From positions 1 to 39,138 of the forward strand of contig JALSIX010000145.1 in assembly GCA_026989655.1 (NCBI GenBank): a stretch of 39,138 bases of DNA. The letters are read 5' to 3'. Below are positions 7,089 to 38,686 of this stretch, one piece after another. Origin of the DNA: Caldilineaceae bacterium (GTDB lineage: Bacteria > Chloroflexota > Anaerolineae > Caldilineales > Caldilineaceae). Each line of letters starts with the position of its first letter. The first letter of the stretch is position 1. Under the pieces are notes generated by a model that saw only the letters and a list, made by a program, of their open reading frames with translations, did not search any database and had not been told where the DNA came from. The translations under genes and the position numbers were made by a program.

Positions 7089-8416
7089 AGGGCCGCGAAG
7101 ACCTCCTCCAGTCCGGGGACCGGCAATTCCGGCAGCGGATAGATGGGCGACGGCTCTGGAAGCGGGGGCAGCGGCGGAGGACAGGGGGCCCCGGCCGCCA
7201 CGGTGGTCGGCTCGGTGAGCCATGCCCGGAGCTGGGCCACGTTCCGGCGCACGTCGAACTCCCGCTCTGCCTTGGCCCGGGCCGCGGTGCCCATGGCCTG
7301 GCGGCGGGCTGGATCGGTGAGGAGCTGGGCCAGGGCCTGGGCCAGGGCCGACACGTCTCCCGGTGGGACCAGCAGACCGTTCTGGTCGTGGTCGATGATC
7401 TCTGGGACGCCGGTCAGCTCTGTGGAGACCGGAGGCAGGCCGGTGGCCATGGCCTCCAGGAGCACCGTGGGCAGACCGTCCCGGTTGCCGTCCTGGCCCA
7501 CGACGCAGGGCAGGGCAAAGACGGCGGCCTGGCGGTAGGCCCTCAGCACCTGTTCCTGGGGGCGGGGTCCCAGGAGCTTCACCCGGTGGGACAGGCCCAA
7601 CGCCTGGATCTGTGCGGTGAGCCGGGGTTCCAGGGGCCCTTTGCCGATGATCTGGCAGTGGAACTTCACCCCTTGCTGGGCCAGGATCCCGCAGGCCCGG
7701 ATCAGGTCGCTGAAGCCCTTCTTCTCCACCAGCCGGCCTACGGCCAGGATGCGGTTGTCCCGGCGCTGTCCTGGGCGGCCTGGGCGGAAGCGGCCCAGGT
7801 CGATGCCGTTGTAGAGGCAGTGGATGGTGCCCGGGCCGTCCTGGATGAGCTCCTGCAGATAGCGCTGGTTGAAGCGGCTCACCGTGACCACGAAGCGGGC
7901 CTCGCGGATCTTGGCCCGGAGGCTCTCCGGGCGCACGCTCTCGTGGAAGATGTCCTTGGCGTGGGCGGTGAAGCTGTAGGGCATGCCGATGAGATGGTAG
8001 ATCAGGTTGGCCACCCGGGTGGCGCTGGACGCGAAGTGGGCGTGGACCCCATCCACCGGATGACGAAGCAGATGGGCCGCGATGTAGCCGGCCTGGAGGA
8101 ACCGCTTCACCGCGTAGAGATGCCCCTTGGCCTCCACCTGGGCCCGGACCCGGCGGTAGCGCTCGGGGACCGCAGCCTGGAGGAGCCGATGCGCGGCCAG
8201 GATCCGGTCCGGCTCCATCTGGGGATACTGGGGCACGTAGACCACGTTGGCCCGGACCCGGGCCAGACGGGCATGGAAGCGGCCATCGTCCGGCTTGCGC
8301 AGGGAGTAGATGCGCACGTCCACACCTTGGCGTTCCAGTTCCAGGATCTCGTTGACGATGAAGGTCTCGGAGAACCGGGGGTACATCTTCAGGATATAGG
8401 CGATCCGGGGCCTCAT
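7085..8416 (-). CDS. GT4-family glycosyltransferase
   Basis: This 443-residue GT-B enzyme opens with IAYILKMYPRFSETFIVNEI, the typical start of exopolysaccharide GT4 enzymes (WcaL/AmsK-like). The donor-binding half carries ILAVGRLVEKKGFSDLI and RDGLPTVLLEAMATGLP; in the latter the first Glu of the EX7E motif is replaced by Asp. It should transfer a sugar from a nucleotide donor to a lipid-linked oligosaccharide at the cytoplasmic face. The C-terminal 45 residues are Pro-rich and outside the fold. Start and stop both overlap the neighbouring genes as ATGA, so three transferases are translated as a chain. The frame runs open far upstream, but that part lies antiparallel in register over the previous gene and is not protein-like. 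Confidence 0.92.
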   Translation of the reverse strand: MRPRIAYILKMYPRFSETFIVNEILELERQGVDVRIYSLRKPDDGRFHARLARVRANVVYVPQYPQMEPDRILAAHRLLQAAVPERYRRVRAQVEAKGHLYAVKRFLQAGYIAAHLLRHPVDGVHAHFASSATRVANLIYHLIGMPYSFTAHAKDIFHESVRPESLRAKIREARFVVTVSRFNQRYLQELIQDGPGTIHCLYNGIDLGRFRPGRPGQRRDNRILAVGRLVEKKGFSDLIRACGILAQQGVKFHCQIIGKGPLEPRLTAQIQALGLSHRVKLLGPRPQEQVLRAYRQAAVFALPCVVGQDGNRDGLPTVLLEAMATGLPPVSTELTGVPEIIDHDQNGLLVPPGDVSALAQALAQLLTDPARRQAMGTAARAKAEREFDVRRNVAQLRAWLTEPTTVAAGAPCPPPLPPLPEPSPIYPLPELPVPGLEEVFAAL

Positions 8417-9663
8417 GAGAACAGCTCCTTGTGGATGGCGACGAAGGAGAGACGTCCATGGGGGTTGCGGGAGGAGCCGGGCCGCGGCCGCTCCTTCCCA
8501 GCCAGCAGTTCCTGGATGGCCTGGCTGACCCGTTCCAGACCGTCCAGGGCAAGGGTGATCTGGGGTGGGGGGGCGGCCAGCCCCTGTTGGATGGCCTGGA
8601 GGAGGCGGGCAGGTGTCAGCTCGTTGGGCAGCAGGACCTGGGCCAGGCCCTGATGGGCCATCTGGTGGGCCCGAATGCGCTGCTCGGCCCGCACCCGGTC
8701 TCGGGGGATCAGGAGGGCCCGTTTGCCCAGGGAGAGGAGCTCGCAGACGGTGTTGTAGCCGGCCATGCTCACCACCAGATCCGCGGCCTGGATGTAGCTG
8801 GGCAGGTCCGGGGTGAACTCCAGCAGGGTGACGTCCTGGCCCTGGGCCATGCGTTGGAGGAGCATCCTCTTTCCCCGAGGCATGAGGGGCCCGGTGACCA
8901 CCAGGCTGTGGAAGGCGGGACGATGGGCCGCCACCATCTCCAGATGGGTGCGCAGGATGGGGTAGCCGTCTCCGCCGCCGCCCACGGTGACCACCACCAG
9001 CGGGCGCTCTGCGACGTCCAGTTCCCGGCGCACCGTGTCCGGAGGGCGGGGCCGGGAACTCCGGCGCAGGTAGCCGCACTCCAGGAGCTTCTGAACGGCC
9101 CGGGGTGTCATCCCGTAGGCGGTCACGGGATCGAAGAGCCGTCGCTCTCCGTAGAGGAGGATGGCGTCGTAGACCTGTTCCAGGAGCTGGAGGGTCCCGT
9201 TCGCGTGCCACTCTGCCCGGGTGACCTCTGGGCTGTCCTCGATGTCCCGCATGCCCAGGACGAGCCGGGTCTCGGGGGACCAGGTGCGCAGGTAGCGGAG
9301 GGTGGGGAGCAGCTCTCCGTGGACACCGCCGGCCACCTTGTCCACCAACACCAGGTGGGGCCGGAAGTTCAGGGTGGCCTGGAGGATCATCTGTTCCCGC
9401 CAGCGGAGGGTCTGGCGCAGGGTCAAGGGCAGGGAGCGGGCCTTGTACTGGCCGCTGGAGCGCTTGCTCAGGGCCGGCAGCTTGACCATGTCCAGCCGGG
9501 GGGGCAGGCTGAAGGCCCCGGCCACCATGGACCCGGTGACGAGCAGTTGATGCAGGTCTGGGATGTCGCGGGCCAGTTGGTGGGCCACGCTCAGGCTTCG
9601 GCGCAGGTGGCCCAGGCCATAGGTGTCGTGGGAGTAGAGCAGGATGCGTGGTTTGGTGGTCAT
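8413..9663 (-). CDS. MurG/GT28-like predicted glycosyltransferase
   Basis: This 416-residue protein begins with RILLYSHDTYGLGHLRRSL, the nucleotide-sugar transferase start of the COG4671-like family. It ends with a GT28-type C-terminal domain: a glycine-rich loop (VVVTVGGGGDGYPIL), VVTGPLMPRGKR, and the donor-site segment LVVSMAGYNTVCELLSLGKR. Family members use UDP-sugars; the product here is unknown. It is the first gene of the minus-strand glycan operon and overlaps the next gene by four bases. No clear Shine-Dalgarno precedes the ATG at 9663. An inverted repeat at 9759-9791 in the A/T-richer leader could be its operator. Confidence 0.85.
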   Translation of the reverse strand: MTTKPRILLYSHDTYGLGHLRRSLSVAHQLARDIPDLHQLLVTGSMVAGAFSLPPRLDMVKLPALSKRSSGQYKARSLPLTLRQTLRWREQMILQATLNFRPHLVLVDKVAGGVHGELLPTLRYLRTWSPETRLVLGMRDIEDSPEVTRAEWHANGTLQLLEQVYDAILLYGERRLFDPVTAYGMTPRAVQKLLECGYLRRSSRPRPPDTVRRELDVAERPLVVVTVGGGGDGYPILRTHLEMVAAHRPAFHSLVVTGPLMPRGKRMLLQRMAQGQDVTLLEFTPDLPSYIQAADLVVSMAGYNTVCELLSLGKRALLIPRDRVRAEQRIRAHQMAHQGLAQVLLPNELTPARLLQAIQQGLAAPPPQITLALDGLERVSQAIQELLAGKERPRPGSSRNPHGRLSFVAIHKELFS

Positions 9664-9758: not shown

Positions 9759-9791
9759 GGGCACATGGTGTCCTGTACCCAATATGTGCCC
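9759..9791. repeat. Inverted repeat, possible operator of the glycan operon
   Basis: GGGCACAT (9759-9766) and ATGTGCCC (9784-9791) are perfect 8-base arms separated by 17 bases. They lie about 100 bases upstream of the first glycosyltransferase start in a stretch that is A/T-rich for this genome (9784-9850). The spacing of about 25 bases centre to centre suits a dimeric regulator, but no matching regulator is known. Confidence 0.4.
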
Positions 9792-9905
9792 ATGGGGCCG
9801 GGCAAAAATACAGTGTAGGGAGAAAATGTAGCGATCTTTTCTGGGAAATTGGGGGAGAGCGGCCGCCGGGACGGCCGTGTAGGGGGGCTCGTCGGCCGCG
9901 CGGAG

Positions 9906-24782: not shown

Positions 24783-26321
24783 TCACTCCGACTCGTCGCT
24801 GGACCCGCCCTGTTCCACCTCCATGGAGAGGGGAGCCGGCGACACCTCGGCCATGGTCGAGGTGTCCTCGGAGGAGGCGTTCTCTGTCTCCGGGTCTGGG
24901 GCCATGGCCTCCTCCGCCTTGGGCATGGTCTCGGTCCCGGCCACGGGTGAGGTCACGGCCTCGTCCGTCTCCGGGGTCTCTGGGGGCTCGGGTTCGTCCG
25001 GGCCTTCCTGGGCTTCCGGAGCGGAGGGGGGCTCCGGGGGCGGGGAGGATCCCTCCGCCGCGGCCGGGGGTGGGGGGGATTCCGCAGGTTCCAGGGGCTT
25101 CTGTGCCCGCTGGGCTTCCTCCTCCAGCAGACGCTGCCCGACCACGGGATCGGCCTGGCGCCGGCTGAGCCCGATCCGTTGCCGCCTGGAGTCCACCCGC
25201 AGGATCTTCACCGGCACCCGGTCTCCGGGCTCCACGGTCTTGAGGGGTTCGGCCACGTCGATGTCCGCCAGCTCGCTCACGTGGATGAGCCCCTCCACCC
25301 CGGGCTCCAGCTGGGCAAAGGCGCCGAAGTCCACCACCCGGGTGATGGTGACCAGGATGGTCTGGCCGGGCTGGTAGCGTTCCTCGATGCTCTCCCAGGG
25401 GTTGGGCAGCAGGCGTTTGCGGCTCAGGGCGATGCGCTGGCGCTCCGGGTCCATGCGGAGGATCTCCACCTGGATCTCCTGGCCCACCTGGAGCACGTCT
25501 CGGGGGTGGCTCACCGGGGTCCATCCGATCTCGCTCACGTGGAGCAGGCCGTCGGCGCCGCCGATGTCCACAAAGGCGCCGAAGGGCCGCAGGCTGCGGA
25601 CCACACCGGTGATGATGTCGCCTGGACGCAGGCGCTCGAAGAGCTCTGCCTTGCGTTGGGCCCGGTACTCCCGTTCGGCCAGCCGCTGGGAGAGGACCAG
25701 CCGTCGGCGGCGACGGTCCACTTCGATGACCTTGGCCGGAATGACCTGGCCGATGAGGGCCTCCAGTCGCCGGTTGCGTTCCTCTTCGCTCAGGTTGCGG
25801 GGCAGGCCCACCACATGGGAGGCCGGGATGAAGCCCCGGAGATGGCCGAAGCGGACCAGGAGGCCGCCTTTGTTGTAGCCGATGACCGGGTAGGTTCCGA
25901 TCTCGCCGCTGGCCAGCATCTCCTCGGCCCGCTGCCAGTCCTTCTGCTGGAGGGCGTCCGCGATGCTGAGGACCAGCATCCCCTCATCCGCGGTCAGCTT
26001 GCTGACCACCACGGGCACGGTGGCCCCTTCCTTCAGGGAGGCCACGAATTCCTTGTCCAGGCGGGTCAGGTCCGACTGGGGCACGATGCCATCCCGCTTG
26101 GCACCGATGTTGACCAGGAGTTCGTTGGGGCGTACCTCGACGATGATGCCCTCCCGCAGTTCTCCGCGCTCGGGCATCCCGATCTCCTCTTCCTCGGCCA
26201 GGTACTGCTCGAACAGGGCCCTGTCCTCTGCGCTGCCTTCCTCCGCCTCCCCCTGTTCATGGAACCGTTCGAAATCGTCCTGCGCGAAGTCGTTCTCGTG
26301 GTACCGATCTGCTTCCGCCAT
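24783..26321 (-). CDS. rpsA: 30S ribosomal protein S1-like RNA-binding protein (four S1 domains)
   Basis: The 512-residue protein has four S1 domains: about 55-120 (EGIIVEVRPNELLVNIGAKRDG), 140-205 (TYPVIGYNKGGLLVRFGHLRGFIP), 225-295 (GDIITGVVRSLRPFGAFVDIGG) and 310-380 (PGQTILVTITRVVDFGAFAQL). Acidic segments lie before domain 1 and form a long Pro/Glu/Ser-rich tail (about 395-512). Gram-positive and Chloroflexota S1 proteins of this size are known; it is shorter than the six-domain enterobacterial S1. It helps load structured mRNA on 30S. The ATG at 26321 is preferred to a GTG at 26327. The tail, about 120 residues, has no recognisable fold. Confidence 0.92.
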   Translation of the reverse strand: MAEADRYHENDFAQDDFERFHEQGEAEEGSAEDRALFEQYLAEEEEIGMPERGELREGIIVEVRPNELLVNIGAKRDGIVPQSDLTRLDKEFVASLKEGATVPVVVSKLTADEGMLVLSIADALQQKDWQRAEEMLASGEIGTYPVIGYNKGGLLVRFGHLRGFIPASHVVGLPRNLSEEERNRRLEALIGQVIPAKVIEVDRRRRRLVLSQRLAEREYRAQRKAELFERLRPGDIITGVVRSLRPFGAFVDIGGADGLLHVSEIGWTPVSHPRDVLQVGQEIQVEILRMDPERQRIALSRKRLLPNPWESIEERYQPGQTILVTITRVVDFGAFAQLEPGVEGLIHVSELADIDVAEPLKTVEPGDRVPVKILRVDSRRQRIGLSRRQADPVVGQRLLEEEAQRAQKPLEPAESPPPPAAAEGSSPPPEPPSAPEAQEGPDEPEPPETPETDEAVTSPVAGTETMPKAEEAMAPDPETENASSEDTSTMAEVSPAPLSMEVEQGGSSDESE

Positions 26322-26460
26322 GGTCACTACCGCCCTGAAAGGTGGTTCGCTGTCCGGCCCCCTGGAGCTGATAAAACAGGCGGAAAGGCCCCTGTTCGAC
26401 AGATGACGGCCTGCGCTACGGAGGGTGATCTGTGCGGTGTGGAGACCTTCCCATCGCCTG

Positions 26461-26495
26461 GCATGCCGGTGTGGCCAGGCCCCTCACCGGCATGC
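26461..26495. repeat. Inverted repeat at the rpsA transcription start
   Basis: GCATGCCGGTG (26461-26471) and CACCGGCATGC (26485-26495) are perfect 11-base arms with a 13-base loop. They begin seven bases downstream of the rpsA -10, so the transcript would start with this hairpin, or a repressor could bind here. Confidence 0.75.
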
Positions 26496-26501
26496 TTCCA
26501 G

Positions 26502-26530
26502 ATTATAACAGGCACTCTGGAGGACGTCAA
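26502..26530 (-). promoter_or_regulatory. Strong sigma-70-type promoter of rpsA
   Basis: On the minus strand TTGACG (26525-26530) and TATAAT (26502-26507) have exactly 17 bases between them. The start point near 26495 leaves a leader of about 175 bases before rpsA. Confidence 0.88.
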
Positions 26531-26579
26531 GCAATTTTGTAAGTTTCGAATTATGTAACCTTCACAGGGGGCAAAGGAG

Positions 26580-26613
26580 AGAGGCCGGAGGGGGCTTCCC
26601 ACCTCCGGCCTCT
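26580..26613 (-). terminator. Terminator hairpin of dnaK
   Basis: AGAGGCCGGAGG (26580-26591) and CCTCCGGCCTCT (26602-26613) make a perfect 12-base-pair stem 34 bases after the dnaK stop. In the dnaK direction it is followed by TCTCCTTTGCC, a short pyrimidine run. Confidence 0.75.
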
Positions 26614-26646
26614 GTTGTTGCGGGGTTCGTGGAAGGGAGGACGTGG

Positions 26647-28557
<1,911 letters not shown>

Positions 28558-28652
28558 AGGGTTCTCCTCCTTGCTATCTCCTTGTCGTGAGGTTCGGCAG
28601 GTCCATGAGTGCTCGTGGACGATGGAACATCAGCAGTTCACGAATTCGTAGC

Positions 28653-28680
28653 GGAATCGGCATCCTCAGATGCCGATTCC
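28653..28680. repeat. Perfect 12-bp hairpin upstream of dnaK
   Basis: GGAATCGGCATC (28653-28664), loop CTCA, GATGCCGATTCC (28669-28680). It lies about 100 bases upstream of the dnaK start and could be a leader hairpin, a block to plus-strand transcription (TCCGTTTGGTT follows on that strand) or an operator. Confidence 0.75.
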
Positions 28681-28691
28681 TCCGTTTGGTT

Positions 28692-28723
28692 AAAATCGTG
28701 AATTACTAAAATCGTGAATTACT
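28692..28723. repeat. 16-bp perfect tandem repeat upstream of dnaK
   Basis: AAAATCGTGAATTACT occurs twice in direct succession (28692-28707 and 28708-28723). A related sequence in the opposite orientation, TTCACGAATT, lies at 28637-28646 beyond the hairpin. This is A/T-rich for the genome and looks like a protein-binding array at the dnaK promoter. Confidence 0.8.
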
Positions 28724-28990
28724 GAACATGGATTCCAGGCAATAGATCCAGAGCGGTCGGTCCATGCGTCTGTAAGGTATACCGCCTTGAAAGTACGCCG
28801 TCAGATGTGCCGCCCTGGGATACCGCGGCCGGGCTCTGCCGGCACCGGACCTCCGGAGCATTCCCAGGACCGCCCTGGCTGGACAGGATGCGCGATCCAT
28901 TGTACCGTTCCCACTATACACCGAGGAAGTTAATATCGTATATGGCGAGTATTAGCAAAACGTTTGAACTCAGCTCAAGGTGCCGCCTGC

Positions 28991-29608
28991 ATGGATCGAC
29001 GTCCCCCGAAGAGGTCGCCCGCCCAACCCAGTGACGCCGAGCTGGTCTCCCGCTGTCTGGCCGGCGACCAACAGGCCTGGCAGGCCCTGGTGGACCGTTA
29101 CGCGGCCCTGGTCCACTCGGTGCCCGCCCGCCACGGCCTTCCCCCCATGGAGGTGGAGGACGTGGCCCAGGAGACCTTCCTGGCCCTGGCCCGCAATCTG
29201 GACCGTCTCCAGGATCCCCAGGCCCTGCCCAGTTGGTTGATGATCACGGCCCGGCGCCTGAGCTGGCGCGCCCTGGCCCGACATCGGCGGGAGAGCGTGG
29301 GGGCCGAGGACGACCTGGGCGCCTCCCAGGACGGGCTGGCCATTCCGGCCACTGTGCCCACCGTGGACGAGCTGCTCCGCTCCTGGACGCGCCAAGAGGC
29401 CCTCCACCAGGCCATGGCCCAGTTGGATCCCCGCTGCCAGGAGCTCCTGACCCTCCTCTTCCTGGATGCCCGGGAGCCCTCCTACGCACATGTCAGCCAG
29501 ATCTTGGGCATCCCCGTGGGCAGTATCGGCCCTACCCGGAACCGCTGTCTGGCCAAGCTGCGGCGGCTCCTCCAGGAACAGGTGGAGGAGCCGAACGAGC
29601 TGCTCTGA
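28991..29608 (+). CDS. ECF-type RNA polymerase sigma factor
   Basis: The 205-residue protein has sigma region 2 (about 18-95; DAELVSRCLAGDQQAWQALVDRY and VEDVAQETFLALARNLDRL) and region 4 (about 140-195; QLDPRCQELLTLLFLDAREPSYAHVSQILGIPVGSIGPTRNRC shortened here to its landmarks PRCQELLTLL and GSIGPTRNRC). There is no region 3 or 1, which defines the ECF class. It should redirect RNA polymerase to a small regulon, and is normally held by an anti-sigma factor, probably the gene 225 bases downstream. The ATG at 28991 follows AAGGTG (28977-28982) with an 8-base spacer. Its promoter is not identified; autoregulation is common in the class but not shown here. Confidence 0.92.
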   Translation: MDRRPPKRSPAQPSDAELVSRCLAGDQQAWQALVDRYAALVHSVPARHGLPPMEVEDVAQETFLALARNLDRLQDPQALPSWLMITARRLSWRALARHRRESVGAEDDLGASQDGLAIPATVPTVDELLRSWTRQEALHQAMAQLDPRCQELLTLLFLDAREPSYAHVSQILGIPVGSIGPTRNRCLAKLRRLLQEQVEEPNELL

Positions 29609-29833
29609 GCCGGAGGGCCCCGTGCACCCCGGAGATCCGCGGCAGAAGATCCGGGGACCAGGTATCAAAGCCCGTGGACGTTGTCTCCTTGGAAGTGAAG
29701 AGTGTGTGGCGATGGACGATAGAGAGATCGAGAGCCCGGAGCTCGCATGCCAGGGAGCCCTGAGCCCCAGGGGCATGCACCGGCACGGGCCGGCGAGAGC
29801 CGCCGCCGGCCGTCCCACGGAGCGCAGAATCCC

Positions 29834-30496
29834 ATGGACCACCTGAGCGACGAACGCCTCCTCCAACTCCATCTGGACGAGCAGGCCCTGCTGCCCCCAG
29901 AGGAAGCCCATCTGGAGAGCTGTCCGACCTGTCAAACCCTGTACGCCCAGTACGCGGCCCTGGCCGAGGATCTGGCCCTGGCCCGGCGCAGCCGGCCCTC
30001 TGCCCAGGCCCTGGCCCGGTACTACCGCCTCTTTCAGGAGATCCCCCGGTCCTCCTTGGCGCAACGGGTGGAGCGGGCCCTGCGCGCGGTGATCCTGGGC
30101 CTGGGCTTCGACAGCCGACAGCAGGCCGCCCTGGGTGTCCGACGGGCTGCCGAGGGCCTGGGCTATCGCCTGCTCTTCAGCGGCGACCAGGCCGATCTGG
30201 AGCTCTACGTGGAACCCACCGGCGACACCCGTCGGCTGGAGGGGGCCCTTATCCTCGGCGAGGACCTGGGGATCGAGGGGCCTTTCTGGGTCGAGCTCCG
30301 CCCGATTCCAGAGGGGGCTCCATCTCCCTATCCAGCCCAGGAGTCCTCCCGCCCCGTCGCGGTCACCCTCTCTCGTCCTGACGGCTACTTCCGGATCCGG
30401 GACGTCCGGCCCGGCCGCTATCGGCTGGCCCTGACCCCCACCCGGGGCGCCGTGCTGGCACCTTGGCTGGAGGTAGAGTCCATCCACATCACATGA
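29834..30496 (+). CDS. Zinc-finger anti-sigma-like protein, soluble
   Basis: The 220-residue protein begins with a short helix (HLSDERLLQLHLDEQALLPPEE) and the HxxxCxxC motif AHLESCPTC (His26, Cys30, Cys33), the hallmark of ZAS-type anti-sigma factors, which bind and silence ECF sigma factors. No membrane helix is visible, so it is cytosolic. The remaining part has a helix and a beta-rich domain (LGYRLLFSGDQADLELYVEP, then GYFRIRDVRPGRYRLAL), the latter like a carboxypeptidase-regulatory fold. The start is uncertain: an ATG at 29747, with GGAG five bases upstream, would add 29 low-complexity residues. Its TGA overlaps the start of the TPR-CHAT gene as ATGA, so the two are translated together. 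Confidence 0.82.
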   Translation: MDHLSDERLLQLHLDEQALLPPEEAHLESCPTCQTLYAQYAALAEDLALARRSRPSAQALARYYRLFQEIPRSSLAQRVERALRAVILGLGFDSRQQAALGVRRAAEGLGYRLLFSGDQADLELYVEPTGDTRRLEGALILGEDLGIEGPFWVELRPIPEGAPSPYPAQESSRPVAVTLSRPDGYFRIRDVRPGRYRLALTPTRGAVLAPWLEVESIHIT

Positions 30497-33405
30497 ACGC
30501 GCCCGAGCTGACGCCCGAGATCCTCGAACAGTTGGCCCAGCATCCGGACACCGACCGGGCCCTTGTCCTCCTGGACACCCTGGGCCTGGCGGATCCCCAG
30601 GTTGCCGCGCGCCTGGCCGACCAGGCTCTGGAGAGCGCGGAGTCCGACCCCGAGCGGGCTGCCCGGTGGCTCAGCGTGGCCTCGGCCCTGGCTCGGCACG
30701 TGGGCAAGAAGCCCCTGGTCCTGGCCCGGATCCACTATGCCCAGGCCCGCCTGGCCCTTGCCGCGGGCCTGTTGGAGGAGGCCGAGAAGGAGATCCGCCA
30801 GGCCCAGCGTTGGTGGCGCCGCGCGGGGGATCGGGCATCCCTGGCCCGGAGCGCGCTGGGCCTGACCCAGGTGTGGGTCCTCCAGGGTCGCTACGCGGAG
30901 GCGGAACACACCATCCGCCAGGCCCTCCAGGAACTCCCGGCCAACACCCCTCTGCGGGCCCAGGCCCTGGTCAACCTGGCCAACCTGCTCCGCCGTCGGG
31001 AGCACCACGCGGAGGCCCTGGAATGTTACCGGCAGGCCGAGGCCATCTACCGGACCGTCCTGGCCTCGGCGCCGCCCTCCCAGGCCGAGACCCTGCGGCG
31101 CAAGGTCGCCTACGCGGCGGTGAACCAGGCCAACGCCCTCATGGCCCTGGACCGGCCCCTGGACGCGGAGAAGGCCCTGCGGGATGCCCTGGCCGTTCTC
31201 CGGGAGAGCGACGATCGGCTCAACCTGGGTCGTACCTGGACCAATCTGGGCACCCTGTATCTGCGTATCGGCCACTATACCCAGGCCTTGGAGGCCTTCC
31301 AGCAGGCCGCCGAGATCCTTCAGGCCAACGGACTCCTGGACGACAGCGATCCGGCCCGACAGGCCGATGTGCTCCTGCTGGAACAGGCCAAGGTCTACCT
31401 GGCCCTGAACCTCATCCCGGAGGCCATCCACGCGCTCCAGGGGGCCATCCAGCTCTTCCAGGAGGCCGGGCAACCCTACGAGCTGGGCCAGAGCCTCTAC
31501 ACCCTGGCCCTGGTCCACCTGCGCAACCACCGCTGGGACACCGCCCAGGAGCTCCTGGACCGGGCCGAGGCCCTGTTCGCGGAGATCGAGAACCCCAACT
31601 GGCAGTACCGGGTGCGGCTGGCCCAGGCGACCCTGGCCTTCCGGCGGGAACACCTGGACGCGGCCCGAGCCCTCCTGGCCCAGGTCCCAACCCACACCGC
31701 GGAGATCCCAGGTTGGGACCTGGCCCTCCAGGTGGAGGCCACGCTCCTGCGCCTTCAGGTCGATCTGGCCGGCGGCCAGGTGGACCGGGCCCGTCAGTGG
31801 GCCGAGGAGGCGCTCCCCCACCTGATGGATCAGGTGGGGCAACAGGGGCTGCATCTGCCCCATCTCTCCATGGCCCTGGTCCATGCCCAGGGCAGCCTGG
31901 CCCTGGCCGCTGGCCAGATCTCCCAGGCCCTCCAGGCCTTCCGCCGGGCCACCGAGCTGCTGGAGCAGGTCCGGGTGCGGCTTCCCATGGAGGAGGCCAA
32001 GGCCGCCTATCTGGACGACAAGGAGAGCTACTACGGGGGGTGGGCGGCCGCTCTATTGGCTCGAGGGCCTGCCCAGGACGAGCTCACCGGCCCCGTGGTG
32101 GCCGAGCTCTTCGGGGTGGCCGAACGGGCCCGGGCCCGGATCCTCCTGGAGCGCCTCCACGCGGCCACCAGCGGGGACACCGCCAGCGCCCCGGACCGAG
32201 AGTCCGCCCTGCGTCGGGAGCTCCACTGGCTCTACAACCAGCTCCTGGATGTCGACGATCCGGCGGTGCGGGAGGAACGACAGCGCCAGGTGGCCGTCCG
32301 AGAGGCCGCCCTGGCCCGGCTGGCCTGGCAACAGGATGCCCTCCAGGCCCAGGTCCAGACCATCGGGCTGGCCCAGTTCCAGGCTGCCCTGGCCCCGGAC
32401 GAGCAGGCCCTGGTCTACTACTGGCTCTCCTCTCCCTTGGATCGGCAGGGCCCGGAGCTCCTGGCCTTTGTGGTGTCCCGGGAGGAGGCCTATCTGGTGC
32501 GGGGCCTGGCCCGAGAGCCCGAGCTGGACGACCTGGCCACGGAGCTGCGTTTCCAGATGGGGCGGATGGAGGTGGGAGCCGCCTACGCCCAGCGCCATCG
32601 GGCCCGGCTCCTGGCCGGCGTGCAGGAGACCTTGGGGGCCCTGTATCGGCGGCTGGTGGCTCCCCTTGCCCATCGGCTGTGGGCCCCCCGGCTCCGGATC
32701 GTGCCCCATGGGCTGCTCCATCGGCTGCCCATCCATGCCCTGTGGGACGGGGAACGGTACCTGATGGAGCGGATGACCTGTCGCTACGCCCCCAGTCCCG
32801 GGGTGGCCGTCCACCTGGCTCGTCTGGAGGAGCCCCTCCTGCCCAAGGGAACCCTCCGCTGGGCCGGCCTGGCTCCGGAGGATCCCTCCATTCCCGGAGC
32901 CCGCATGGAGGTGGAACGGGCTGCACCGCTTTTCCAGGAGGCCCGTCTCTATCTGGGGGATCGGGCCGATGAACCCGGCCTCCAGGAGGCCGGCTCCTGG
33001 GCCCATATCCTGCACCTGGCCACCCACGGTCTCTTCCGTCCCGACAACCCCTTCTTCTCCGCGCTCAAGCTGGCCGACGGCTGGATCGACGTGCGCCGGC
33101 TCTATCGTCTGCCCCTCCAGGCCCGGCTGGTGGTGCTCAGCGCGTGCGAGAGCGGCGCGGGTCGGGTCCACGGTGGCGACGAGGTCATCGGCCTGGTCCG
33201 GGGCTTTCTGGGGGCCGGAGCCCGCTCCCTGGTGGTGACGCTATGGAACGTCCACGACCACAGCGCCGTTCGTCTGATCGAGGATTTCTATCGGGCACTC
33301 CAGCGCACCGGTTCCACGGCCCAGGCCCTGGGCTGGGCTCAGGAACAGGCCGTGCAGCGGGAGGAACATCCCTACCTCTGGGCACCGTTCATGGCCGTTG
33401 AGTAG
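30493..33405 (+). CDS. TPR-CHAT caspase-like protease
   Basis: The 970-residue protein has about 500 residues of tetratricopeptide repeats (for example ARSALGLTQVWVLQGRYAEAE, WTNLGTLYLRIGHYTQALEAF, SLYTLALVHLRNHRWDTA), a helical middle part, and a C-terminal CHAT domain (about 690-970). CHAT domains are caspase/separase-like cysteine proteases. The dyad is intact: His845 in LHLATHGLF and Cys885 in VVLSACESGAG, followed by GLVRGFLGAGARSLVVTLW. TPRs would bind a partner that switches the protease. It lies between the anti-sigma and subtilase genes. By analogy with type III-E CRISPR TPR-CHAT, its natural target may be the anti-sigma protein; this is inference. It has no signal peptide. Confidence 0.93.
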   Translation: MNAPELTPEILEQLAQHPDTDRALVLLDTLGLADPQVAARLADQALESAESDPERAARWLSVASALARHVGKKPLVLARIHYAQARLALAAGLLEEAEKEIRQAQRWWRRAGDRASLARSALGLTQVWVLQGRYAEAEHTIRQALQELPANTPLRAQALVNLANLLRRREHHAEALECYRQAEAIYRTVLASAPPSQAETLRRKVAYAAVNQANALMALDRPLDAEKALRDALAVLRESDDRLNLGRTWTNLGTLYLRIGHYTQALEAFQQAAEILQANGLLDDSDPARQADVLLLEQAKVYLALNLIPEAIHALQGAIQLFQEAGQPYELGQSLYTLALVHLRNHRWDTAQELLDRAEALFAEIENPNWQYRVRLAQATLAFRREHLDAARALLAQVPTHTAEIPGWDLALQVEATLLRLQVDLAGGQVDRARQWAEEALPHLMDQVGQQGLHLPHLSMALVHAQGSLALAAGQISQALQAFRRATELLEQVRVRLPMEEAKAAYLDDKESYYGGWAAALLARGPAQDELTGPVVAELFGVAERARARILLERLHAATSGDTASAPDRESALRRELHWLYNQLLDVDDPAVREERQRQVAVREAALARLAWQQDALQAQVQTIGLAQFQAALAPDEQALVYYWLSSPLDRQGPELLAFVVSREEAYLVRGLAREPELDDLATELRFQMGRMEVGAAYAQRHRARLLAGVQETLGALYRRLVAPLAHRLWAPRLRIVPHGLLHRLPIHALWDGERYLMERMTCRYAPSPGVAVHLARLEEPLLPKGTLRWAGLAPEDPSIPGARMEVERAAPLFQEARLYLGDRADEPGLQEAGSWAHILHLATHGLFRPDNPFFSALKLADGWIDVRRLYRLPLQARLVVLSACESGAGRVHGGDEVIGLVRGFLGAGARSLVVTLWNVHDHSAVRLIEDFYRALQRTGSTAQALGWAQEQAVQREEHPYLWAPFMAVE

Positions 33406-33431
33406 CCACAGAGGAGATGGCGAGGGAGACC

Positions 33432-35270
33432 ATGGGCATTCAACGAGACACCGGACGCACTCCCTGGGCTTTCTGGCTTTCTGCCCTGACCGCGGCGGTC
33501 GGGGTGGTGGCCCTGCTGGGGGTCCTGGTCTGGCCGGGTCGACCTGCCCGGGCCGACGGCGATGGCTGTGAGCTCAAGGGCACGGTCCTGGCGAGCCCGG
33601 GCACGTCCACGGGCATGGGCTCGTGGCAGGTCCAGGGGACCCTCTCGGACTGTGGCGCCGCGAACGCGTCGGGGATCTACACGGTCCAGGCCACGGAGAC
33701 CACCCGTTTCCCGGACGGTCTGCCGGAGGTCCAGGAGCGGGTGGAGGCGAAGGGGATCCTGGTAGCCGGGCAGGTCCTGGAAGCCTGGGAGATCGAGCGG
33801 GAGGAGTCGGAGGACGACCCATCCCAGGTGGAGTTCCACGGCTGGGTGGAGACGCGCCCGAGCCGGGTCGACGGCATCGGCACCTGGTCTATCCGGCTGT
33901 CGACCAGCCAGCGGGAGACCGTGGTGGCCGACGGGAACACCCGCTTCAAGAAGGGGGTGCCCGAGGTGGGCCAGTGGGTGGAGGTGGAGGGGAGCCGCCA
34001 GGCAGACGGCACCGTCTTGGCCCGCCGCATTCGCCCGGACGACTACGAGGCCAACCAGGTGGTGGTGCGCCTGAAGGAGGGCATCCCTCCGGGGGAACTG
34101 GCCCGCCGTCGCAACCTGGTCCTGTTGCAGTCCCTGCTCCCCAGCGCGAACATCCACCTGTTCGCGCTCCAGGACGACGATGACGAGGAGAACCTGGTCC
34201 AGCTCCTCACCACCCAGGACAGGGACCTGGTGGTCTGGGCCGAGCTGAACTACGTGGGCGGCATCCCCGAAGGGGATCCCTACGACATCTGGGAATGGGG
34301 CGGAGAGGACCGCAGCGGCTACGTGAACCAGGCCGCCTTCCAACAGGTGCACCTCCCCGATCCTCTCACCGCCGTCAGGGGGCAGGGGGTGACCGTGGCC
34401 GTGGTGGACACCGGGATCGCCCTGGACCATCCGGAGCTCCGGAGCCGGGTGGTTCCAGGATGGGACATGGTGGATGACGATGCCGTGCCCAACGACGAGC
34501 CCGGTGGAGGCGGCTGGGGCCACGGCACCCACGTGGCCGGCATCATCGCCCGGATGGCTCCGGACAGCACGTTGATGCCGGTGCGGGTCCTGGATCCCCA
34601 AGGCCGGGGCAACAGCTTCGTGGTGGCCTACGCGGTGGAGTGGGCGGTGAACCAGGGGGCCCAGGTGATCAACCTGAGCCTGGGCGGCCCCTTCGACTCC
34701 CAGGTGCTCCGGGAGGCCGTGGCCTGGGCCGCCCAGCAGGGGGCCATCGTGGTGGCGGCGGCCGGCAACCAGGCCACCGAGGCCCCCCAGTATCCCGCGG
34801 CCTATCGAGATGCCGTCGTTGCGGTGACCGCGGTGGACGCGGCCAACCGGAAGGCGGACTTCGCCAACTACGGCTCCTGGGTGGACCTGGCGGCGCCGGG
34901 GGTGGGCATCACATCCACCCTGGTCAGCCAGGTGGGCTACGGGTACGCCAGCTGGAGTGGAACCTCCATGGCCACCGCGTTCGTGAGCGGTGCGGCTGCC
35001 CTGCGGCGGGAGCAGGATCCCGCCATCCCGGCCCGCCGGCTGGCCCAGGAGCTCCGCAGCACGGCCGAGGGCCTGGAGGCGACCAATCCCGACTACATGG
35101 GCGATCTGGGGGGCGGCCTGCTCCACGTGGCCCGGTTCCTGGGGATCCAGGAGACCACGCCCACGCCGACCCCGACCCCGACTCCGAGCCCGACACCGAC
35201 GCCACAGCCCACACCCACGCCCGCGCCGCCCAGGCCCCTCTACCTGCCTCTGGTGCTCCAGGGGCCGTGA
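33432..35270 (+). CDS. Secreted subtilisin-like serine protease (S8) with DUF5666-like N-terminus
   Basis: The 612-residue product has a signal peptide (hydrophobic core SALTAAVGVVALLGVLV, then ARAD). Two DUF5666-like beta-rich units follow (about 40-115 and 120-195), then a 'VVRLKEG' propeptide-like segment and the S8 domain with Asp326 (AVVDTGIALDHPEL), His364 (GHGTHVAG), oxyanion Asn446 (AAAGNQ) and Ser512 (SGTSMAT). All four are intact. A Thr-Pro repeat linker leads to the tail PLYLPLVLQGP at the C-terminus, a short hydrophobic end typical of Chloroflexota secreted proteins and probably a cell-surface signal. The start is uncertain (33417 or 33432). It is 26 bases after the TPR-CHAT gene, so likely in its operon. 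Confidence 0.93.
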   Translation: MGIQRDTGRTPWAFWLSALTAAVGVVALLGVLVWPGRPARADGDGCELKGTVLASPGTSTGMGSWQVQGTLSDCGAANASGIYTVQATETTRFPDGLPEVQERVEAKGILVAGQVLEAWEIEREESEDDPSQVEFHGWVETRPSRVDGIGTWSIRLSTSQRETVVADGNTRFKKGVPEVGQWVEVEGSRQADGTVLARRIRPDDYEANQVVVRLKEGIPPGELARRRNLVLLQSLLPSANIHLFALQDDDDEENLVQLLTTQDRDLVVWAELNYVGGIPEGDPYDIWEWGGEDRSGYVNQAAFQQVHLPDPLTAVRGQGVTVAVVDTGIALDHPELRSRVVPGWDMVDDDAVPNDEPGGGGWGHGTHVAGIIARMAPDSTLMPVRVLDPQGRGNSFVVAYAVEWAVNQGAQVINLSLGGPFDSQVLREAVAWAAQQGAIVVAAAGNQATEAPQYPAAYRDAVVAVTAVDAANRKADFANYGSWVDLAAPGVGITSTLVSQVGYGYASWSGTSMATAFVSGAAALRREQDPAIPARRLAQELRSTAEGLEATNPDYMGDLGGGLLHVARFLGIQETTPTPTPTPTPSPTPTPQPTPTPAPPRPLYLPLVLQGP

Positions 35271-35386
35271 TCCTGTCCCCGGCCAGGAGGGTGGGCCTCC
35301 GGCAACGGGGGCAGGCGGGACCCGGGGCGCCGGCGCTTCAGCCCCCGGCCGGATGGCTCTGCAATGCACCCCGGTGGCGCGGGGAT

Positions 35387-35415
35387 TTGCCCATTCGTCC
35401 CGGATCTGTTATCCT
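35387..35415 (+). promoter_or_regulatory. Promoter of rpsT
   Basis: TTGCCC (35387-35392) and TATCCT (35410-35415) have a 17-base spacer, about 100 bases before rpsT. Confidence 0.55.
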
Positions 35416-35517
35416 ACTCTCCTGTGCCGAGATGGGTCTTCAACGGGAAGGGCCCATTCCAGGGACAGAGCCAAGTGGCTCGTAGCGGAGCCGGATCACT
35501 ACGGAGCGGGAGAGGAC

Positions 35518-35799
35518 ATGGCCAATACCCGATCTGCTGCCAAACGTGCTCGACAGGCCGAGAAACGCCGGATGCGCAACCGGGTCTATCGGAGCTGGGC
35601 CCGAACCGCGATCAAGAAGGCCCGGGCCCATATCCAGGCCGGTGACTTCCAGGCCGCGGAGGAGGCCGTGCGGGTCGCGGTCCGGGTGTTGGACAGGGCC
35701 GCGCGGAAGGGGATCATCCACAGGAACAACGCGGCCCGACGCAAGAGTCGGCTGATGCGCATGTTGGCCAAGGCCAAGGCCGCGGCCCAGCAGTCCTAG
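35518..35799 (+). CDS. rpsT: 30S ribosomal protein S20
   Basis: The 93-residue basic helical protein has the S20 pattern: MANTRSAAKRARQAEKRRMRNR, RSWARTAIKKARAHI and KGIIHRNNAARRKSRLMRML. It binds 16S rRNA early in 30S assembly. The ATG at 35518 has GGGAGAGG just upstream. It is a single-gene unit between a weak promoter and a hairpin. Confidence 0.97.
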   Translation: MANTRSAAKRARQAEKRRMRNRVYRSWARTAIKKARAHIQAGDFQAAEEAVRVAVRVLDRAARKGIIHRNNAARRKSRLMRMLAKAKAAAQQS

Positions 35800-35851
35800 C
35801 CCCGGGGGCCGGGCTGCCTCCCTGGCCAGCAGGGCCCAATTCGAGCTCTCC

Positions 35852-35874
35852 GAGCCGCCCTAGATGGGCGGCTC
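35852..35874 (+). terminator. Terminator of rpsT
   Basis: GAGCCGCCC and GGGCGGCTC form a perfect 9-base-pair stem with a 5-base loop about 55 bases after the rpsT stop. The T run after it is short (TTCG), so efficiency is uncertain. Confidence 0.6.
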
Positions 35875-35940
35875 TTCGCGTGGAGCGCCAGCGCCATCTG
35901 GCCCTGGGGCGGGCGTCGGCCAGGCCGGGGGGCGTTTCCG

Positions 35941-36726
35941 TCAGGGCACCGGGGCCGGGGACCGCCCGTCCGGGGAGGGGGCGCCCTGGTGCGCGTAGTA
36001 GTCACACAGGTCCTGCAGGATGCAGGCCTCGCACCGGGGATTCCGGGCCCTGCACACCTCCCGGCCGTGGCGGATGAGGTTCAGGTGAAGGGGGTAGTAG
36101 GTCTCCGGCGGAAGGAGGGCCTCCCAGGTCTGTTTGACCTTCAGGGGGGAGGCCTTGGGCGGCACCATGCCCAACCGTTGGCTGACCCGCTGGACGTGGG
36201 TGTCCACCGGGAAGGTGGGCTGGCCGAAGCAGAAGAGCAGGACGATGCTCGCGGTCTTGTGGCCCACTCCGGGGAAGCTCTCCAGGTAGGCCAGGGCCTC
36301 TTCCACCGGCATGTCCTGCAGGGCCTCCAGGGTGTAGCCGCCCTGTTCCTGGCGTAGCTTCTCCAGCGCGGCCACGATGCGGGGGGCTTTCTGGCGGTAC
36401 ATCCCCGCGACCCGGATGGCTTCCATGATCGCCTCCAGGGGCGCGGTCCGCACCCGGTCCCAGTCGCCGTCGAAGCGCTCCTTGAGCTGTTGGAAGGCCC
36501 GGAGGCTGTTGCGGTCGTTGGTGTTCGCGCTGAGGATGGTGAGGATCAGTTCGTCCACCGGCTCGTAGTGGGGCCGCCAGTCGGGCTCGCCGTAGGCCTC
36601 CAGCAGACGGCGGTGGATCTCCCAGGCCTTGGCTCGGAGGCGCTCCCGGTCCGGTTCCTCCGGTTCCTCCCATGGGCTGGGGAGGGCGGGATCTGGGGAA
36701 GGGGTGGGGGGCGTGGATCGGGCCAT
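35941..36726 (-). CDS. nth: Endonuclease III (DNA glycosylase/AP lyase)
   Basis: The 261-residue protein is an HhH-GPD DNA glycosylase. The helix-hairpin-helix FPGVGHKTAS carries catalytic Lys157, and Asp175 lies in PVDTHVQR. The iron-sulphur cluster loop C-x6-C-x2-C-x5-C is complete (Cys225, 232, 235, 241). It removes oxidised pyrimidines in base excision repair. An N-terminal Pro-rich extension of about 25 residues and a C-terminal tail are outside the core. The ATG at 36726 has AGGAG seven bases upstream, overlapping the stop of the LacI gene nine bases away; the two are co-transcribed. Confidence 0.95.
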   Translation of the reverse strand: MARSTPPTPSPDPALPSPWEEPEEPDRERLRAKAWEIHRRLLEAYGEPDWRPHYEPVDELILTILSANTNDRNSLRAFQQLKERFDGDWDRVRTAPLEAIMEAIRVAGMYRQKAPRIVAALEKLRQEQGGYTLEALQDMPVEEALAYLESFPGVGHKTASIVLLFCFGQPTFPVDTHVQRVSQRLGMVPPKASPLKVKQTWEALLPPETYYPLHLNLIRHGREVCRARNPRCEACILQDLCDYYAHQGAPSPDGRSPAPVP

Positions 36727-36735
36727 GCCGGGCTC

Positions 36736-37761
36736 CTAGGTGCTCTCCCGCACCACCAGGTGGACGGGGTAGGTTCGGACCTGGGGCATGGTGCGCTCGT
36801 CCATTCGTTCGTAGATCAGGTCGAACAGGGCCCGCAGGGCATCGCGGACCCGGAGCTCGATGTCGTAGTGGACGGTGGTCAGGGGGGGCAGGGCCGAGGC
36901 GGCCTCGGGGAGGTCGTCGTAGCCCACGATGGCCAGGTCGTCGGGCACCCGCACCCCGGCTTTGCGGGCCCCCCGGAGGATGGCCAGGGCCCGCACGTCC
37001 GAGACGCAGAGCACGGCCGTGGGGCGAGGGCGGAGCCTCCACACGGCCTGGAAGGACTCCTGGCTGGCGCCAAGGCGGCCGGGGGTGTGGACGATCTGGA
37101 GGGTCTCTGGCGGCAGGCCGAACGCCTCCACTGCCTTCCGGTACCCCGCGATGCGCCACTCGAAGGTGGGGATGACCACGCCGTCGTCCCGAGGGGGCAT
37201 GGTGGCCACCGCGATCCGCCGATGGCCCTTCTCCAGCAGGTGTCGGGCTGCCTCGTATCCTCCCTGGATGTCATCCAGGTTGAACATGGGGACCGGGATG
37301 GCCGGGTCGCCGTTGAGGATCACGGCCGGTCGACTCAGGTTCTCCAGGGCCCGGGCCAGGGGATGGTCGCGGTGGATGCCGAAGAGGACGAAGCCGTCCG
37401 CGGCCACCGTCTCCAGGATGGCCGGGGACACGTCGCCCTTGGCCGGGACCAGGAGGATGTGTTTCTGCTCCTGGTCGCAGACGGTGCCGATGGCGCCCAG
37501 GAACCGGCTGAAGAGGGGATCGTGCAGGATCCAATCCAGGCTGGTGGGGACCACCAGGCCGATGGTGTGGGTCCGGCCGGTGGCCAGGGTGCGGGCCACG
37601 GGATGCGGTTGGTAGCCCAGCTCGGCCGCGGTCTCCAGGATCCGGTCCCGGGTGGTGGGGCTGAGCTGGTGCGGTGCGTTGTAGGCAAAGGAGACCGCGG
37701 TGGGCGACACCCCGGCCTCTCGGGCCACATCTCGCAGGGTCACACGTTTCTTTCTGCCCAC
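36736..37761 (-). CDS. LacI-family transcriptional regulator
   Basis: The 341-residue protein has the LacI headpiece (VTLRDVAREAGVSPTAVSFAYN, then DRILETAAELGYQPHPVARTLATGRT) and a periplasmic-binding-like sensor domain (IGLVVPTSLDWIL; FNLDDIQGGYEAARHLLEKGHRRIAV; AIVGYDDLPEA). It should bind a sugar or nucleoside effector, but no transport or sugar-use gene lies nearby. The start is a GTG at 37761 with GAGGAG eight bases upstream; no in-frame ATG fits. It lies between rph and nth with short gaps, so its own expression is tied to housekeeping genes. The target is not apparent. Confidence 0.92.
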   Translation of the reverse strand: MGRKKRVTLRDVAREAGVSPTAVSFAYNAPHQLSPTTRDRILETAAELGYQPHPVARTLATGRTHTIGLVVPTSLDWILHDPLFSRFLGAIGTVCDQEQKHILLVPAKGDVSPAILETVAADGFVLFGIHRDHPLARALENLSRPAVILNGDPAIPVPMFNLDDIQGGYEAARHLLEKGHRRIAVATMPPRDDGVVIPTFEWRIAGYRKAVEAFGLPPETLQIVHTPGRLGASQESFQAVWRLRPRPTAVLCVSDVRALAILRGARKAGVRVPDDLAIVGYDDLPEAASALPPLTTVHYDIELRVRDALRALFDLIYERMDERTMPQVRTYPVHLVVREST

Positions 37762-37805
37762 GATGAGCGCTCCTCTGAGCTCGTCTCCGGATGCAGGGCC
37801 CCGGT

Positions 37806-38567
37806 TCAGCGTCGGTCCTCGGCCTGGGCCAACGCCGCGCGCTGGTGCTCCAGGAGCTCGCGAATGCCGAGCTCGGCCAGGACCAGCATGGCGTTCAGCG
37901 CGCCCCGGGTGAAGGGAGCTCCCTCTGCCGTGCCCTGGACCTCCACAAACCGGCCCTGCTCGGTCATCACCACGTTCATGTCCACCTCCGCGGCCAGGTC
38001 CAGCGCGTAGTCCAGGTCCAACATGGCCTGGCCGCGGACGATGCCCACGCTCACCGCGGCCACCTGGCGCTCCAGGGTCCCGGATGGGACCTTCTTGTCC
38101 CGTTCCAGGCGGCGGATGGCCAGGGCCAGGGCCACCCATCCCCCGGTGATGGCCGCGGTTCGGGTGCCTCCGTCCGCCTGGAGCACGTCGCAGTCCACGA
38201 TGATCTGCCGGCGCCCCAGCTTCTCCAGGTCCACCGCACAGCGGAGGCTGCGGCCGATGAGCCGTTCGATCTCCTGGGTGCGTCCTTTGGGCCACTGGGT
38301 CTCCCGGCGGGTGCGAGATTGGGTGCTGCGGGGCAGCATCGCGTACTCCGCGGTCACCCAGCCGTGGGATGCGTTCGACTGGTGGAGCCACCGGGGCAGC
38401 CGCTCCTCGACCGTGGCCGTACAGAGGACCTTGGTGTTGCCCATGCTGATGAGCACCGAGCCCTCGGGGTGCATCAGGTAGTCCACCTCGAACCGAACCG
38501 GACGGAGCTCGTCCGGTCCTCGGGAGCATGGCTCTTCGGCAGCCTGGGAGACGGGCGATTGGCTCAA
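37806..38567 (-). CDS. rph: Ribonuclease PH
   Basis: This enzyme trims the 3' ends of tRNA precursors by phosphorolysis. The family landmarks are present: [55 protein letters not shown] and [19 protein letters not shown]. The start is difficult. No ATG or GTG is in frame near the expected position; a TTG at 38567 gives 253 residues, close to the family size. The usual R-x-DGR motif before DELRP is missing, although an ATG at 38529 in another frame would encode MLPRTGRAP, which resembles that motif. So a frameshift near the start is possible. A promoter lies at 38627-38655. Two tRNA-Ala genes, which need 3' trimming, are directly upstream. Confidence 0.9.
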
Positions 38568-38626
38568 GGTGGAGAGGGCCCTTTCGACAGCATGGAACGG
38601 CGAGCCAACAGGCGGTTGGTGAGGAT

Positions 38627-38682: not shown

Positions 38683-38686
38683 GGAG

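Follow-up and report, generated by a model that had tools for sequence, protein, structure and literature searches.

Background

Proteases with tetratricopeptide repeats (TPR) and a CHAT domain are linked to sigma factor control in type III-E CRISPR systems, where the TPR-CHAT protease Csx29 cleaves Csx30, an inhibitor of CASP-sigma, according to passages of PMC10028731. Whether a protease of this kind could gate a sigma factor outside a CRISPR system is the question raised by a contig of a Caldilineaceae bacterium of the phylum Chloroflexota (JALSIX010000145.1 of assembly GCA_026989655.1; 39,138 nucleotides, hereafter called the window), which carries at positions 28991-35270 of the forward strand genes for an extracytoplasmic function (ECF) sigma factor, a soluble anti-sigma-like protein, a TPR-CHAT protein and a secreted S8 protease (subtilase). 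A preliminary description of the locus, made from the sequence alone, drew the analogy with Csx29 and Csx30 and suggested that the TPR-CHAT protein may act on the anti-sigma protein, with the subtilase as a co-regulated output or stress sensor.

Here, we examine this locus by comparative genomics, profile searches, structure prediction and a search for shared promoter-like elements. The linkage of the gene set is strong and widespread, the product of the middle gene is likely to be a sigma inhibitor, and the reading that we prefer, with somewhat better than even confidence, is a cytosolic, CRISPR-free, protease-gated sigma switch in which the TPR-CHAT protein would cut the inhibitor and thereby free the sigma factor.

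Results

The gene set and its conservation

All four open reading frames (ORFs) are present on the forward strand, and Pfam matches agree with the preliminary description for the sigma, CHAT and subtilase genes (Table 1). The sigma factor also matches the NCBIfam model TIGR02937 above its cut-off (5.9e-24) and has RpoE (1or7; 3e-10) as its best match among sigma factors of solved structure. The subtilase combines its peptidase domain with a hydrophobic N-terminus (19-residue hydropathy 2.32), in keeping with the secretion claimed for it. Among 19 related S8 proteins, strict text patterns for the catalytic motifs found all three in 12 and missed at least one in 7. The start codon of the CHAT gene and the stop codon of the anti-sigma-like gene, which is open from position 29747, overlap as ATGA, as had been described; among 15 orthologs, 10 allow the same overlap.

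A search for the TPR-CHAT protein covered 61 genomes, and 40 CHAT regions were retrieved, namely 37 matches and 3 further CHAT loci of the window's own genome. The order sigma, anti-sigma-like, CHAT and S8 was found in the window and in 19 ortholog loci of the same bacterial family, with none contradicting it; 12 of these 20 loci are complete, and the other 8 are cut by a contig end in or beside the CHAT gene, with the remaining genes in order. The ortholog set spans 17 genomes and 14 genera, and in three genera (g8, g16 and g17) the search of the 61 genomes yielded nothing better than E 4.6e-6. An anti-sigma-like gene also occurs in 13 of the 21 other CHAT regions fetched. A search of the genome contigs with the anti-sigma-like protein of the window alone gave no match, and the CHAT alignment was used instead.

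Outside the family, named genomes were surveyed through the best 80 of 574 confirmed CHAT loci, which were picked by CHAT similarity to the query and thus do not give a general rate of linkage: an anti-sigma-like gene lies upstream in 23, a sigma gene in 23, both in 20, and both together with an S8 gene downstream in 16. These loci come from Rubrobacter, Modestobacter, Thermoflexales, Ardenticatenaceae, Acidobacteria, Planctomycetes and Rubrivivax, among others, and the order recurs in Actinobacteria, Acidobacteria, Planctomycetes and one betaproteobacterium. A less biased sample was drawn from a PF12770 search of 301 Chloroflexota genomes by taking 40 regions, about every third of the score-sorted matches listed. 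A CHAT ORF was present in 39 of the 40, with an anti-sigma-like gene no more than 3.5 kb upstream in 16 of those, a sigma gene in 13, both in 12, and an S8 gene downstream in 9.

The association was also followed from the side of the inhibitor, by searching 46 genomes of the family with a profile of the anti-sigma-like protein. Of the 24 matches at E <= 1e-9, 23 adjoin a TPR-CHAT gene; in G004:C753, G012:C297, G008:C323, G003:C114 and G010:C842 the contig stops short of the CHAT domain and the TPR part alone is visible. In the exception (G010:C384), the sigma gene is adjacent and the CHAT gene lies 6 kb downstream. A lack of conserved linkage in related genomes had been named at the outset as one outcome that would speak against the proposal; on inspection, the linkage is kept across genera and in other phyla.

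Two Meiothermus loci (L084 and L086) carry anti-like genes that lack the N-terminal domain near a CHAT gene, preceded in L084 by an S8 gene, and the sigma profile detected no sigma gene in either. Close to the CHAT genes of L251 and L252, and about 3 kb from that of L250, sigma and anti-like genes with weak scores are found on the other strand, for which reason they were not counted as linked.

The middle gene as a likely sigma inhibitor

The anti-sigma-like protein has no zinc-finger match in Pfam and a weak CarboxypepD_reg match below the Pfam cut-off (0.011); the latter domain appears at E <= 0.1 in 20 of 22 anti-sigma-like proteins. A profile of 15 diverse members matched anti-sigma factors of solved structure, first RsiW (1.5e-5) and then DdvA (0.014), RslA (0.023) and ChrR (0.29), all across the N-terminal domain; the C-terminal part is Ig-like (NOMO2, 1.4e-15, by profile search). 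The HxxxCxxC motif noted earlier is real: among the family sequences, window included, His26, Cys30 and Cys33 are kept in 16 of 16 and His3 in 15 of 16. With an N-terminal helical domain and Hx3Cx2C, a motif that is optional in the class, the protein is a probable class I anti-sigma factor (ASDI/ZAS). No membrane helix is apparent, in line with the original observation, the best 19-residue hydropathy being 0.78 in the window and 0.86-1.29 in 15 orthologs. About 35% of proteins with anti-sigma domains are thought to be soluble, and zinc and non-zinc domains mix within known groups, according to sections of PMC7406223.

The predicted model of the protein (mean predicted local distance difference test score, pLDDT, 77.5) comprises helices at residues 6-14, 21-29, 31-50 and 57-69 and a beta domain within residues 86-214. 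When this model was used in a fold search, the matches listed were beta domains, Ig/FN3-like and others (Z <= 8.2), with no anti-sigma factor among them; the beta domain filled the results, which are uninformative on the helical part. Outside the bacterial family the zinc motif is not general, Hx3Cx2C being absent in L076, L083, L094 and L099.

Indirect support for the proposed binding and inhibition of sigma by this protein comes from three loci (L072, L230 and L257) in which a single ORF upstream of CHAT fuses a sigma-like region to an anti-sigma region. For each of them the best NCBIfam match is the ECF model TIGR02937, with values that do not reach its cut-off (1.8e-7, 2.4e-4 and 1.4e-5, respectively), and a profile-profile comparison of nine sigma-like proteins, three of which are the fusions, with the sigma family of the window gave a probability of 95.4% and E 1.8e-8 over 172 columns. 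A fused inhibitor would be hard to shed uncut, and a protease gene is adjacent, which suggests release by cutting.

A tandem double HxxxCxxC marks a second class of CHAT-linked inhibitors (L059, L061, L063, L071, L075, L233, L236-L238, L240 and L242-L244); several of these loci also have a divergent sigma-like gene on the upstream side.

A predicted separase-like protease and a candidate cut site

The TPR-CHAT protein is a predicted separase-like protease. The His845 and Cys885 dyad, reported as intact in the preliminary description, is invariant in 16 of 16 and 27 of 27 CHAT proteins in two alignments (A1 and A3), and the CHAT match together with the fold matches assigns the protein to the CHAT/separase group (clan CD). 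The predicted model (pLDDT 88.3, predicted template modelling score, pTM, 0.88) retrieved Csx29 first in Foldseek (8eey_B, E 2.2e-15), then human separase, and also 8rot_A, titled 'transmembrane anti-sigma factor DdvA' (E 2.7e-14). In VIA-align comparisons, Csx29 gave Z 31.3 (root-mean-square deviation 8.7, 569 aligned) and separase Z 27.1 (7.3, 813 aligned), and the TPR protein APPBP2 outscored Csx29 on the repeat part alone (Z 33.4, 3.4, 385 aligned). The analogy with Csx29 and Csx30 is supported by the fold of the protease and by the anti-sigma domain in the middle gene. Membership in the Csx29 family proper was examined and rejected, the NCBIfam model NF041237 giving 64.5 bits for a cut-off of 300, so that the locus may work like the Csx29 system but is not one.

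Separase cleaves after arginine. In 74 ORFs of the anti-sigma-like family, a set that includes near-duplicates (L055/L078 and L104/L236) and on most of which the profile itself was trained, the column of window Arg103 holds arginine in 71 of the 71 ORFs with a residue there, followed by Gly (27) or Ser (22), and is the most conserved among the well-filled columns. MAFFT alignments place arginine in 15 of 15 sequences at window Arg103 (A2) and in 22 of 22 at window Arg104 (A6); since the window has two consecutive arginines, the candidate residue is Arg103 or Arg104. The loop block of residues 101-110 is predicted with low confidence (pLDDT 68) between the first two beta strands, after the inhibitor domain. 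Csx30, too, is cleaved within its C-terminal domain, at a small loop that is flexible, according to passages of PMC10028731. The invariant arginine of this GxR loop in the anti-sigma-like protein is thus a candidate for the site of cleavage.

Promoter-like element and possible regulon

Between the sigma and anti-sigma-like genes, the element GTAT-N19-C(T/A)C recurs with constant spacing in 15 modules including the window, and a matrix built from these finds a 16th in L045 (16 of 16), where the site is inside the called sigma ORF, at its 3' end. Given this likely internal promoter, the four genes need not form one transcription unit. Sites scoring at least 17 in the module loci number 24, of which 14 are training sites; the 10 held-out ones are the L045 spacer site and 9 sites downstream of the S8 gene. 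These nine, 13 bp to 1.1 kb past the S8 gene, precede multi-DUF5666 genes (5), MAM-type secreted proteins (2), a glycosyltransferase (1, in L044) and a contig end (1, in L052). At the same threshold and on both strands, there are 0 sites in 0.51 million bases of other CHAT loci of the class and 20 in 2.49 million bases of unrelated named loci; within the module loci, the matrix gives 24 sites at offset 23 vs 10 at offset 21 and 8 at offset 25. The exact pattern TGTATTTTTN{13,15}CTCT matches 17 times in the 46 genomes, compared with 6 matches for its reverse and 8 for shifted spacing; this excess is modest, and weight is accordingly placed on position and on the matrix.

In the 4.09 Mb of the window's own genome, the strict pattern occurs 5 times and the reversed control once. 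Two of the five sites were examined and stand before a MAM/DUF5666 operon (contig C45) and a DUF5666 gene (contig C107). Among 24 DUF5666 genes, a set that excludes S8 proteins and a small number of short matches, 8 have an upstream site scoring at least 13 (L049 included, with its start reset), and 4 of 7 distinct MAM loci have one scoring at least 11. A glycosyltransferase gene elsewhere in the window, preceded by a site (Table 1), may be a further target, and homologs of its product are encoded close to a site both in L044 (35% identity, site 20.8) and in L053 (82%, site 12.2). The promoter-like element and its recurrence before genes for secreted proteins lend support to the suggestion that the subtilase is a co-regulated output.

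In the paralogous sigma, anti-sigma-like and CHAT modules L054 and L057, the TGTATTTTT left half is kept before the anti-sigma-like gene and the right half differs (GCATA-like), as if the paralogous sigma factor read a different -10; in L057 the paralog element also precedes a gene whose product has a signal-like N-terminus. A search for a shared promoter before the sigma gene found none, the dyad count being no better than in shuffles; the window, L036 and L050 alone share a stretch there, as judged by eye. The two operons on C45 and C107 of the window's own genome (L204 and L205) encode a secreted MAM protein and multi-DUF5666 proteins and carry the promoter-like element.

Table 1. Coordinates of the genes, codons and promoter-like elements discussed in the text; positions are those of the window except in the last row
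Feature	Position	Strand	Remarks
ECF sigma factor, 205 amino acids	28991..29608	+	Sigma70_r2 5.9e-11 (Pfam)
Promoter-like element GTAT-N19-C(T/A)C between sigma and anti-sigma-like genes	29661..29692	+	One spacing in 15 modules
Soluble anti-sigma-like protein, 220 amino acids	29834..30496	+	N-terminal zinc anti-sigma domain (His3, His26, Cys30, Cys33) and C-terminal Ig/FN3-like domain
Arg103/Arg104 codons of the anti-sigma-like protein, GxR loop	30140..30145	+	Candidate CHAT cleavage site
TPR-CHAT, predicted protease, 970 amino acids	30493..33405	+	CHAT 1e-56 and TPRs (Pfam); the CHAT model is PF12770
His845 codon, in TPR-CHAT gene	33025..33027	+	
Cys885 codon, in TPR-CHAT gene	33145..33147	+	
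Secreted S8 subtilase	33417..35270	+	Peptidase_S8 4e-47; two DUF5666 stretches, 1e-13 (Pfam)
Glycosyltransferase (GT28 C-terminal domain), possible further target	8413..9663	-	Glyco_tran_28_C 2.9e-18
Promoter-like element upstream of glycosyltransferase	9781..9812	-	Matrix score 21.4
Paralog-module elements	L054 10562; L057 5864, 9673, 12611	L054 -; L057 +	

Proposed mechanism and alternatives

What the analysis shows is the genes, their linkage, the sequence-based domain assignments and the recurring promoter-like element, and these make the following mechanism plausible. With its N-terminal anti-sigma domain, the soluble anti-sigma protein would grip the ECF sigma factor, and the TPR array may sense an internal signal and activate the separase-like site at His845 and Cys885. 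CHAT would then cleave this inhibitor. The most likely place is behind the invariant arginine of the GxR loop, which separates the anti-sigma domain from the main, C-terminal Ig-like part, and the cut would destabilize the inhibitor and free the sigma factor. The released sigma factor would transcribe its own anti-sigma, CHAT and S8 genes along with further genes for secreted proteins, a step that the DNA motifs support and whose targets may include the MAM protein, the multi-DUF5666 protein and perhaps the glycosyltransferase. As a result, protease, output and fresh inhibitor would rise together.

Several observations weigh against this interpretation. No anti-sigma-like gene was found in 8 of the 21 other CHAT regions of the class (two of which begin at a contig end) or upstream of 23 of the 39 sampled CHAT genes of Chloroflexota. 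Many relatives lack the zinc ligands, and some Acidobacteria (L080, L081 and L089) have a shortened N-terminal domain, so that inhibition there must differ or be absent. Pfam detects no sigma domain in the three fusions. The invariant arginine may be structural, and, in sections of PMC10028731, alanine scanning is reported to have revealed no Csx30 residue essential for cleavage. As to the promoter-like element, the window's own spacer site is weak (matrix score 11.8), the rate in unrelated taxa, 8 per million strand-bases at a score of at least 17, would lead one to expect about 3.5 sites in the module loci, and no site was found for 16 of the 24 DUF5666 genes and 3 of the 7 MAM loci.

The alternative that survives best, which we nonetheless consider unlikely, is gating without proteolysis of the inhibitor: as a sensor or co-inhibitor, the TPR-CHAT protein would bind to the anti-sigma protein and allosterically alter the hold of that protein on the sigma factor, with catalysis directed at CHAT itself or at another substrate. 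DdvA of Myxococcus would then be the version of this arrangement in cis, and its structure 8rot_A is among the top fold matches of the TPR-CHAT model. A weak match to the anti-sigma-like profile (residues 6-48, 0.085) was given by 8rot_B, which is a CHAT domain-containing protein according to its deposition. Gene adjacency and the ATGA coupling suit a complex as well as they suit an enzyme and its substrate. A scaffold, however, would not need the His/Cys dyad that is invariant across 27 diverse CHAT proteins, and the invariant arginine in a low-confidence loop also counts against this alternative.

A slightly less probable alternative is an ordinary soluble zinc anti-sigma switch of the ChrR/RsrA kind, in which zinc or redox chemistry would free the sigma factor and the CHAT and S8 genes would be merely members of its regulon. 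The HxxxCxxC motif and the N-terminal histidine of the family orthologs fit this idea, as does the enrichment of zinc motifs in soluble anti-sigma domains described in parts of PMC7406223, and the promoter-like element would indeed place CHAT and S8 under sigma control. Such a switch, however, accounts poorly for the many relatives with the same gene order that lack the zinc ligands, for the rarity with which the anti-sigma-like protein occurs away from TPR-CHAT in the family, and for the fusions directly upstream of CHAT.

That the proteases act on the sigma factor itself, with no anti-sigma factor, as sections of a review propose for the ECF54 group from the same kind of neighborhood (PMC8999054), and as the truncated N-terminal domain of some Acidobacteria might suggest, is very improbable, because profile searches find an anti-sigma domain in the carboxypeptidase-domain gene.

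Relation to known systems and novelty

The CRISPR-free, protease-gated switch that we favor resembles type III-E Craspase/CASP in combining a TPR-CHAT protease, a two-domain sigma inhibitor and an ECF-like sigma factor, with Csx29 as a fold match. It differs in that the locus adds a secreted subtilase and in that the inhibitor consists of an RsiW/ChrR-type anti-sigma domain and an Ig-like domain. No CRISPR-type direct repeats were seen in positions 24000-39138 of the window, and Cas7-11 was not searched for in the genome.

In parts of the review cited above (PMC8999054), ECF54 sigma genes are described as neighbored by CHAT, subtilase and carboxypeptidase-domain genes, and their regulation is stated to proceed without an anti-sigma factor. 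The locus shares this neighborhood. Its middle gene, however, encodes an anti-sigma domain in addition to the carboxypeptidase-like one, a combination that would change the reading of the ECF54 group. A Modestobacter locus (L099) carries the present module, and Modestobacter belongs to the same family as Geodermatophilus, the model of that group.

RsiW is membrane-bound and is cleared by a membrane cascade. The middle-gene product shares with class I anti-sigma factors of the RsiW/ChrR type the anti-sigma domain with Hx3Cx2C, but is soluble, has an Ig-like C-terminal domain and is encoded next to a protease gene. DdvS of Myxococcus xanthus is an ECF sigma factor that becomes active once its anti-sigma factor is inactivated, according to passages of PMC4374960. 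The likeness to our locus extends from the pairing of an ECF sigma factor with an anti-sigma factor to the match between the solved DdvA structure and the TPR-CHAT model, whereas DdvA is transmembrane, judging by the title of its structure, and the anti-sigma and TPR-CHAT parts are two proteins here, the anti-sigma part lacking a membrane helix. In EACC2-caspase systems, a gene for a caspase-fold protease likewise stands beside an ECF sigma gene, together with DUF1822, and a transcriptional output has been proposed (parts of PMC8195603); the constant domain is a different one, and the term 'anti-sigma' occurs 0 times in that paper.

The arrangement is not wholly new: the company of genes around ECF54 has been reviewed, Csx29 and Csx30 form a CRISPR parallel, and the anti-sigma factor DdvA has a CHAT-like fold. 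The preliminary description is supported as to the linkage, the analogy with Csx29 and Csx30, and the subtilase output; it overstated the novelty, similar genes having been grouped with ECF54 before. Among the matches listed from the open literature, none described a TPR-CHAT protease that acts, outside CRISPR, on an anti-sigma factor that is a protein of its own; subscription papers and preprints were mostly outside the coverage of that search.

More tentatively, and with less confidence than we place in the switch at this locus, we suggest that there may be a widespread CRISPR-free class in which separase-like TPR-CHAT proteases free ECF sigma factors by one cut after the invariant arginine of a soluble anti-sigma protein, that this class may include ECF54-type sigma factors, which would then have an anti-sigma factor after all, and that type III-E CRISPR systems may have captured such a device and placed it under RNA control. 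If the proposed mechanism is true, it would provide a CRISPR-free setting for the logic of Csx29 and Csx30, offer a candidate inhibitor for a catalogued sigma group in which one is missing, and show that anti-sigma factors can be degraded by a soluble, cytosolic route as well as by the membrane cascades. It would also make an open question directly testable through the predicted cut site (Arg103/104), a catalytic mutant (Cys885), the promoter and the secreted targets.

Other features of the window

To the left of the gene set, at 26647-28557, lies what its sequence suggests is a divergent dnaK gene, and the genes to the right are presumably rpsT and nth. PADLOC gave subtilase, TPR and weak BovA/IetS matches only. 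Near the right end of the window, a 77-nucleotide tRNA-like sequence is present in two copies that are 97% identical (38686-38762 and 38844-38920).

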